A stretch of 61,656 bases of DNA from Candidatus Gastranaerophilales bacterium (GTDB lineage: Bacteria; Cyanobacteriota; Vampirovibrionia; Gastranaerophilales; Gastranaerophilaceae): contig CALURX010000007.1 of assembly GCA_944323265.1 (NCBI GenBank), forward strand, positions 1 to 61,656, given 5' to 3'. The stretch's first letter is position 1. Each line of letters opens with the position of its first letter. Under the pieces are notes generated by a model. It saw only the letters and a list, made by a program, of their open reading frames with translations, did not search any database and was not told where the DNA came from. The position numbers and the translations under genes are program-made. Of this stretch, positions 49,519 to 51,685 are shown piece by piece.

Positions 49519-50637
49519 CTATGGCATTGTAACTTTACCTAAAACAACCCTTCTTTCTGCGCCTGTGCAGGAGGGGAGGTTGTTGGGTATATTATAAAAA
49601 TTGCAATAACCTAAAAGCGCAAAAGCCATTACTTCTTTAAAATTATTTGAGATTCCGTAATCTTCATGAGTTTTTAGCTCTATGCGTTTTGGAAGATAGC
49701 TTTTTAAATTTTTCATGAGAGTTTTATTATAAGCTCCGCCGCCCCCGATAATTACGGTATCCGGAGTTACTGTCGGATAAACAAATCTTTCATAAGCCTG
49801 CGCAATAGTTTTTGCTGTCAGCGCTGTAAGTGTTGCAAGAATATCGCGAGGTTCTGACGGTGCTGTTTTCAAAATATTTTCTATATATTTATTAGAAAAA
49901 TATTCTCTGCCGGTTGTTTTAGGCGGTGAGATGTAATAATATTCATCTTGCAAAAGACAATCCAGCCAGCTTTCGCAAACATTTCCTGAGGCTGCAATTT
50001 CGCCGTCTCTGTCGTATTTTTCACCAAAAAATTTCTGTGCGCAGTAATCAATCATTAAGTTCCCGCACCCTGTATCAAAACCGAAAGTGTCGCAATAATC
50101 TGATACAACAGTTACGTTAGAGATTCCGCCTATATTTTGTACAAGAGAATTTTTGAACCATTTTTCATCTGCAAAACACACAAGCGGTGCTCCCTGACCT
50201 CCGTATGCAATATCTTTTTCTCTATAATTTGAGATTGTTAAACATCCGGTTTTGCGAGCTATAACAGAACTCTCCCCGATTTGCAGAGTGCTTTTCAAAC
50301 TTATATTGTCAATCTTTTCGTCAAATGGGTAATGATAAACGGTTTGTCCGTGGCTTGATATCAAATCAGGTTTGCCAAACTCGCCTATAAGAATATTAGC
50401 CGCATCTGCGAAGCACTCGCCTACCGCAAAATTGAGCATACATAAATCTCTTATCGAAATCTCTCCTCTAAAAGCCGAGAAGACTTTTGCGCGAATATGT
50501 TCAGGATAAGGATGATTAATCCCTTGAACTAATTTGACTGATAAATCAGGATAAACTTCGCATAAACCTGCATCAATTGAATCGCAGGAGGTGCCGGACA
50601 TCAGACCTATTATTTTTTTAGGCATCTTTTCTTCCAT
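49519..50637 (-). CDS. anmK: Anhydro-N-acetylmuramic acid kinase
   Basis: The 372-residue protein is a full AnmK. IIGLMSGTSCDSIDAGLCEV is the ATP-binding N-terminal motif, SHGQTVYHYP, NIGGISNVT, FDTGCGNLMID and VIIGGGGAYNKTLM follow. It phosphorylates and opens anhydroMurNAc released from peptidoglycan, so this cell recycles its wall. TATAAT lies seven bases before the ATG at 50637, favouring that leaderless start over the Met four codons on (MPKK), which has a GGAAG site. Confidence 0.94.
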   Translation of the reverse strand: MEEKMPKKIIGLMSGTSCDSIDAGLCEVYPDLSVKLVQGINHPYPEHIRAKVFSAFRGEISIRDLCMLNFAVGECFADAANILIGEFGKPDLISSHGQTVYHYPFDEKIDNISLKSTLQIGESSVIARKTGCLTISNYREKDIAYGGQGAPLVCFADEKWFKNSLVQNIGGISNVTVVSDYCDTFGFDTGCGNLMIDYCAQKFFGEKYDRDGEIAASGNVCESWLDCLLQDEYYYISPPKTTGREYFSNKYIENILKTAPSEPRDILATLTALTAKTIAQAYERFVYPTVTPDTVIIGGGGAYNKTLMKNLKSYLPKRIELKTHEDYGISNNFKEVMAFALLGYCNFYNIPNNLPSCTGAERRVVLGKVTMP

Positions 50638-50650: not shown

Positions 50651-50657
50651 ACATAAT

Positions 50658-50688
50658 AAAAAAAGGTTCCTAAAAATAAGAAACCTTC
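50658..50688 (-). terminator. Terminator of the 50.7-50.9 kb minus-strand unit
   Basis: Minus strand: AAGGTTTCT, loop of nine to ten bases, AGGAACCTT then a run of T. The stem has one mismatch. No annotated gene other than the short frame at 50827 lies upstream of it on this strand. Confidence 0.75.
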
Positions 50689-50826
50689 TTAACCCAATAA
50701 TCTCCTACCCCAAAAAAACTTTTTCTTCCTCAAATCTCTCCTCTAAGATTTAAATTTTTTTATTGATTTGTTTGTGTTTAAGTTAATTGATTTGTGATTT
50801 TTTCTTAAAACTTTTGTATCTTTTTT

Positions 50827-50859
50827 CTATTTCTGACTCCCCCCGAGCCTTGTAGCCAT
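50827..50859 (-). CDS. Very short frame (MATRLGGSQK) with strong ribosome site; possible frameshifted bS21-like gene
   Basis: AAAGGAG lies two to three bases before an ATG opening a ten-residue frame that stops at TAG. The fourth to seventh codons run into six G. With one extra G the frame would read on for 25 residues with SEIEKRYKSFKKKS, which resembles the N-terminal part of ribosomal protein bS21. A good promoter and a terminator bracket it. It may be a leader peptide, a decayed rpsU copy, a frameshift gene, or an RNA with a chance ORF. Confidence 0.35.
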   Translation of the reverse strand: MATRLGGSQK

Positions 50860-50881
50860 CACTCCTTTCAGGTATGTGTAT

Positions 50882-50910
50882 ATAGTATAATTTTCCAATC
50901 TTCTTATCAA
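50882..50910 (-). promoter_or_regulatory. Promoter of the short 50.7-50.9 kb unit
   Basis: TTGATA (50905-50910), 17-bp spacer, TACTAT (50882-50887), with a start point expected near 50875, a few bases before the strong ribosome site. Confidence 0.6.
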
Positions 50911-51028
50911 GTAAATAATTTTGTAAAAATTTTTACAATCGACCATGCTCCCCATAATTATTATGGAAAATTTGAATTTACAAAAGTTAACAACAAAATT
51001 TAACCAAAACAGTATTGACAAAATATTT

Positions 51029-51685
51029 TTATCGTTCAATCAGCCTTATTCTTGTGTCGGAATAATATTCCCGATTGCTTTTGTCCGCATTTTCAACGCG
51101 GATAATTTTATTATCAAGTTCACTGTTCGGACTTATTTCTGCAGCCTTTTTAAAATATCTTAAAGCAGCCTCTGTGTCGCCGAATTTTTCGTAAATAGCG
51201 CCTATTTTATACAAGGTTTCATAGTTTCCGGAATACCCATTTTTGTAAGCGCGTTTGTACATATTAAGAGCGTCTTTGAACTGTCTTCTCTTGTAGAAAA
51301 ATTCTCCGAGGTAGAAATAAGGCTCCGGTCTGGACTTTTTAATTCCCATTGCTTTATAAAAACATCCTTTGGCATACTTATCCATGCCGCAAAGGTCATA
51401 GAGGATTCCAAGTCTTGTAGGGTACATAACATTATCCGGACATTTTTTGCAAAGAATTGTATAGAGATTAAGAGCCGCGGTCATTTCTTCATTAACATTT
51501 CCGTTGCTTGATTTGAGCGCCATTCCGTAGAAGAACTCTGCTCTTTCTAAAATCTCTGCTTCATTCAATTTGGTGTAATCAATCGGAATCTGATACTGAA
51601 TATTCCCTTGTACTGCAGACCAAGAAGGCAGAGATGCCCCAATTATCAATAAAATTAACAAAAAAATCCTAATCAGTTGTCCCAT
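51029..51685 (-). CDS. Secreted TPR-repeat protein
   Basis: The 218-residue protein has a signal peptide (MGQLIRIFLLILLIIGASLPSWSA) and about four tetratricopeptide repeats, best seen at about 115-185: EPYFYLGEFFYKRRQFKDAL and NYETLYKIGAIYEKFGDTEA. TPRs form a protein-binding surface, here in the periplasm. TAAGAT lies seven bases before the ATG and no Shine-Dalgarno is visible. It is divergent from the nuo operon. Confidence 0.78.
   Translation of the reverse strand: MGQLIRIFLLILLIIGASLPSWSAVQGNIQYQIPIDYTKLNEAEILERAEFFYGMALKSSNGNVNEEMTAALNLYTILCKKCPDNVMYPTRLGILYDLCGMDKYAKGCFYKAMGIKKSRPEPYFYLGEFFYKRRQFKDALNMYKRAYKNGYSGNYETLYKIGAIYEKFGDTEAALRYFKKAAEISPNSELDNKIIRVENADKSNREYYSDTRIRLIER

Follow-up and report, generated by a model that had tools for sequence, protein, structure and literature searches.

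A probable stand-alone small RNA gene with a conserved promoter and 5′ motif in a family of Gastranaerophilales

The minus strand of a contig from a Candidatus Gastranaerophilales bacterium carries what we regard, with moderate confidence and from comparative sequence evidence, as a stand-alone small RNA gene of its family. The unit is most likely neither a relic of rpsU nor a peptide gene, nor simply a leader of anmK, and its product is probably an orphan RNA that acts in trans. Sequence inspection of the window (the whole 61,656-nt stretch of DNA that was analysed) places a promoter, a start-like site and a terminator on this strand, and a further reading frame with SEIEKRYKSFKKKS is present in the same feature. 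Among relatives the promoter, a 5′ motif (M1), a 3′ module (M2 in the genus of the window) and the terminator are conserved and the unit is independent of its flanks; conservation of a peptide is not seen. The features are the following:

50921..50953, minus strand: upstream conserved element GGGGAGCATGGTCGATTGTAAAAATTTTTAC, a probable regulator-binding and/or UP element.
50882..50910, minus strand: predicted promoter TTGATA-17-TACTAT, within the conserved block TTTACTTGAT...TATACTATATA.
50659..50878, minus strand: predicted small RNA of about 220 nt, drawn from alignments and genus matches, with predicted ends.
50855..50869, minus strand: module M1, GAAAGGAGTGATGGC, in all 58 close loci.
50827..50859, minus strand: ten-codon frame MATRLGGSQK*, peptide not conserved.
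50835..50849, minus strand: small hairpin GGCTC-GGGGG-GAGTC, nearest clade.
50691..50711, minus strand: 3′ module M2, genus form GGGGTAGGAGATTATTGGGTT, a single match in the window with up to 3 mismatches allowed.
50653..50690, minus strand: intrinsic terminator, a hairpin (50690-50660) and then T's.
50783..50857, minus strand: 'bS21-like' hidden frame, a chance feature and no part of a gene.
49519..50637, minus strand: anmK, the downstream neighbour, a frequent but not constant context.

The first-pass annotation had described an independent short transcription unit, and this description is supported by sequence conservation: the unit has its own promoter and terminator irrespective of its neighbours, with exceptions in the genus g28. 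The 'good promoter' of that annotation holds in the sense that it is kept in relatives, whereas its consensus score taken by itself is at chance level (3 promoter-like sites vs 3.1 in shuffles). The terminator is above chance, one such hairpin having been found vs 0.2 in shuffles, and the ATG frame MATRLGGSQK* lies at 50859-50827 as described. From the four readings then offered for the locus, it is 'a small RNA' that stands.

The distribution of the unit was followed from the genus to the phylum. A query of 306 bases around the RNA matched the region in 21/21 other genomes of the same genus; the overall tally of that search, 28/37, includes the genome of the window itself and weak matches elsewhere. 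DNA similarity supplied 22 close loci and a pattern of the 3′ motif 36 further records (24 of them Candidatus Gastranaerophilales); M1 played no part in gathering these 58 close loci, which hold 45 distinct copies. A sequence-only model (R1) spans the promoter and the 5′ part of the RNA; of its 128 positions, about two thirds belong to the promoter. In a sample of the order it matches 320 of 383 genomes. These are 314/361 genomes of the family, mostly with one match each and including 47/49 of the window's own genus, and 6/22 from the order's other families, where the matches are weak (1e-5 to 0.008). In a sample of the phylum, the model matches 117/130 family genomes vs 4/162 non-family genomes, and none of these four reaches below E 0.001. 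A sister set of 40 copies, which represent 19 sister genera, was picked among the better R1 matches, many sister-genus matches spanning mainly the promoter. One genome holds a second strong match to the RNA model (G331:C145:2418-2542, E 2.7e-12), possibly a duplicate or a contamination.

Upstream of the promoter, the GCATGG and TTGTAA parts of the conserved element are invariant or at least 90% conserved in the 44 close copies that were aligned, and mean column identity from this element to just behind M1 is 81% in the same copies. The element extends to the sister copies, with GGCATG or AGCATG in 39/40 and [AT]TGTAA in 40/40, and is a single site in its own genome at up to 3 mismatches. Searches of the own genome for a second promoter element and for a second complement of M2 found neither. 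A further conserved block, with TTGTCAATA and GTAAA-TTTTGT-AATT, lies at 50981-51040 of the window and is also present in relatives; it suggests that the control region is some 150 bp long.

At the other end of the RNA, 20 of the 22 close loci that came from DNA similarity carry M2 when up to 5 substitutions are allowed. The 3′ module varies by genus, GGAGAUUAUUGGG being the form of the window's own genus, and the words GAGAUU and GGGAU recur. Because the 45 close copies are related and z-scores from them overstate the evidence, the enrichment was assessed with one copy per genus (15 genera, drawn from 31 sister copies out of 40; in 22 of these the terminator came from the script and in 9 the 3′ end was set by hand, and the remaining 9 copies were left out). 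Outside M1, GGGAT occurs 19 times vs 5.0 in shuffles and GAGATT 10 times vs 2.6, and a looser GGAG-N3-7-GG pattern is not clearly enriched (8 vs 4.6, with 10/100 shuffles as high). GGATAGT is present in 11/23 sister RNAs. The genus pattern of M2, at up to 3 mismatches, matches 38/49 genus members and seven other genomes, the latter always with 3 mismatches; a reversed control of the pattern also gives seven matches. Coding candidates in this part of the RNA were rejected: a peptide gene joining the ATG and the 3′ module is contradicted by their spacing, which varies modulo 3 between copies, and for a 3′ mini-ORF (WGRRLLG), frame and stop are not preserved in all copies.

A run of T's follows M2 in 42/45 close copies by script and in L014 and L015 by eye, L017 being cut by a contig end. 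The letters of the terminator hairpin differ among relatives and its location right after M2 is kept. A strict terminator script finds it in 23/40 sister copies, one of which (L172) is doubtful, and the RNA before the terminator measures roughly 90-330 nt in the sister copies measured. The RNA is C-poor. Its fold is not notable in the single sequence of the window (z -1.2), and RNAalifold on 14 close copies gave no pair with changes on both sides. The pairs of the small hairpin GGCTC-GGGGG-GAGTC are mostly kept, with one-sided changes only; a hairpin tested in 8 copies is no better than shuffles. By eye only, clade-specific hairpins behind M1 are plausible.

The element that ties the close and sister copies together is M1. 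The conserved motif, GAAAGGAGUGAUGGC, is present in 45/45 distinct close copies vs 0.9 in shuffles and in 39/40 sister copies vs 1.6 in shuffles (it is absent from L181), lying +15 to +118 from the predicted start in the latter. All 18 matches to the M1 core in 194 kb (the window and DNA of relatives, both strands) belong to this RNA. The profile over 84 copies is GAAAG[G/A][A/G]GUG[A/G]UGG[C/U], with seven invariant positions; the search pattern required [AG]TGG[CT] and a tetramer resembling a Shine-Dalgarno (SD) sequence, so that three of the seven (UGG) were required by the pattern, while neither the constant 2-nt gap nor its UG nor the G preceding the gap was. The 'very strong ribosome site' of the first-pass annotation does not survive this comparison: GGAG ends just 2 nt before the ATG, while of 38 genes to which the same register was applied, taken from the window and from 17 loci of relatives and having an SD of at least 5 nt, 35 show a gap of 4-13 nt (mode 6) and the other 3 a gap of 0 or 2. 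On these grounds M1 resembles a distinct motif more than an ordinary ribosome site, although its start codon may be in use.

It could also be postulated, although we consider it unlikely, that M1 is a true start site and that initiation on a frame of 2-57 codons is the function itself, the RNA serving for example as a sensor of ribosomes or initiation for which the peptide is irrelevant. Consistent with this, an SD-like GGAG, GAGG or GGGG with a start codon is present in 84/85 copies, both starts are used (ATG in 79 and GTG in 5 of the 84 copies), and the second codon reads GCN or GTN, its third base being free. The start-codon counts are to be read with the fact that the pattern allowed only these two codons and that a plain RNA motif would give the same picture. 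Against initiation as the function stand the gap fixed at 2 nt with its invariant UG spacer, unlike most scored genes, and the frames themselves: the ATG/GTG frame runs to 5-57 residues among the 45 close copies and to 2-31 among 39 sister copies, with sister lengths resembling those of shuffled tails (P 0.39), and neither a conserved peptide nor a conserved frame length was found in these two sets. A frame of exactly ten codons is common among the close copies, and their relatedness may account for it.

The surroundings of the unit were compared with the proposal, also made in the first-pass annotation, of a leader peptide regulating anmK. The flanking ORFs of the 45 close copies fall into 83 clusters, and anmK is the next gene downstream in only 13 of these copies (the second gene in one more; in L017 and L040 the contig ends before any downstream gene appears), which argues that the unit persists amid changing surroundings. 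Among the 40 copies from sister genera, 20 are followed by anmK on the same strand, so the position upstream of anmK may be ancestral; a constant location upstream of anmK is thus not found in either set. That the RNA is a cis-acting leader or attenuator of anmK draws on this neighbourhood and on three copies of g28 (L169, L191 and L192) in which, by eye, no terminator separates the two, so that there the RNA may be a true 5′ leader of anmK. As a general account it is improbable, since most close copies precede other genes and still have promoter, M1, M2 and terminator without an adjoining anmK; the leader proposal is therefore weakened and is not the whole story. In another genus, g33 (L177 and L194-L196), the RNA precedes a gene that we take, from its N-terminus, to be phosphopentomutase-like and not anmK.

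For the stand-alone RNA, the following course of action can be proposed. A dedicated, strongly conserved promoter would make an RNA of about 220 nt ending at its own intrinsic terminator, and transcription and action in trans are both presumed. M1 (GAAAGGAGUGAUGGC) and M2 (the GAGAUU/GGGAU words, here GGAGAUUAUUGGG) might be contact sites, and these G-rich modules might contact an RNA-binding protein or C/U-rich target mRNAs. A regulator that binds GGCATGGTCAATTGTAAA might control, at the promoter, how much of the RNA is made. In the own genome, the complement of M2 occurs once, and a target search at a threshold of 15 of 18 yielded no further site complementary to M2; the same genome gave no PF17209 match for Hfq. 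At the gathering score, Rfam recognises tRNA alone in the window, and the RNA region and 13 of the 40 sister loci gave only weak sub-threshold matches to unrelated families.

A role as a sponge for ribosomes, in which many SD-like sites would bind the anti-SD, is very improbable. AGGAG is abundant in the close copies (129 vs 24 expected), but 5-mers complementary to the 16S end that we assumed show no excess outside M1 (217 vs 266 in close and 102 vs 142 in sister copies, like the reversed control), and the candidate was rejected. Sequestration of CsrA in the manner of CsrB or RsmZ, once favoured, is likewise highly improbable, and as a role for the whole family it is refuted. In its favour, the RNAs hold 5.5-6.1 GGA vs 0.2-0.45 TCC each (dinucleotide shuffles preserve GG and GA and are a poor null for GGA alone), each of the 22 genus members in the first sample has CsrA and FliW, 48/49 of those in the larger one have CsrA, and in the own genome the CsrA gene lies beside fliW. 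Against it, 195 of the 320 RNA-bearing genomes miss CsrA, whole genera included (CsrA in 0/33 such genomes of g15, 0/36 of g20 and 0/7 of g34, the closest genus by score). In addition, ANGGA is depleted in the 45 close copies (73 vs 127 expected) and not in excess in 20 sister copies (48 vs 44), GGAT is rare in close copies (13 vs 68), and the motif CA[AT]GGA[TA]GA of flagellin leaders is found in 0/45 close RNAs and 1/40 sister stretches. CsrA control in Campylobacter jejuni is described as a case studied without antagonising small RNAs (PMC4894983).

In the order sample, CsrA matches occur in 153/383 genomes and 27/52 genera, and are missing from many genera of the family. At the flagellin loci L086-L106, CA[AT]GGA[TA]GA, which resembles a CsrA site, lies upstream of the SD in 14/17 leaders; since these genomes have fliW-csrA, a FliW/CsrA switch of flagellin is likely in the genus.

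A decayed or frameshifted rpsU, which the first-pass annotation had raised on account of a bS21-like hidden frame, can be practically dismissed: the likeness is local (alignment score 38, reached or exceeded by 5/11,175 stop-free 24-residue pieces of the window), the frame has no Pfam match (0 families, PF01165 included, vs 80.7 bits for the own rpsU), BLASTP against the own bS21 gives a 6-residue match at E 0.24, the frame runs for 1 to at least 40 residues in the copies before it stops, with 24 of the 45 close ones showing the stop within 8 codons, and the look elsewhere in the genome that had been advised turned up an intact rpsU (G000:C34, E 4e-22). The bS21 likeness of the hidden frame is chance, and with it fall both the decayed gene and the programmed-frameshift gene.

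Sponge RNAs such as CsrB/CsrC and RsmX/Y/Z are transcribed from promoters controlled by response regulators. Like them, the RNA described here has a stand-alone gene with an intrinsic terminator, a long control region conserved upstream of it, and G-rich motifs that recur; unlike them, it persists in genera without CsrA, and its motifs are GAGAUU/GGGAU and M1, with ANGGA not in excess. Dual-function and leader-ORF RNAs share with it a start codon and a purine-rich SD-like sequence near the 5′ end, and differ in that here peptide and frame length are not conserved and the SD-ATG gap is 2 nt. The cyanobacterial Yfr1, Yfr2 and 6S RNA come from a related phylum and are in the same size range, whereas the present RNA has no Rfam match at the gathering score.

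Gastranaerophilales are gut and rumen relatives of the cyanobacteria, represented mostly by metagenome-assembled genomes (MAGs). The titles and opening lines of abstracts covered by a literature search hold nothing on small RNAs of Gastranaerophilales, Melainabacteria or Vampirovibrionia. A bolder and rather doubtful idea is that the RNA forms the core of an unrecognised global regulator, abundant and controlled at its promoter, whose G-rich modules would capture an RNA-binding protein that recognises GG and is not CsrA, or, at M1, 30S initiation complexes. If this were true, the RNA would do here, where Hfq was not found, what CsrB does elsewhere. The analysis removes a false rpsU reading of the locus and weakens its reading as an anmK leader, and a mostly single-copy RNA gene with a promoter conserved across the family would offer a defined entry point to RNA regulation in Gastranaerophilales.
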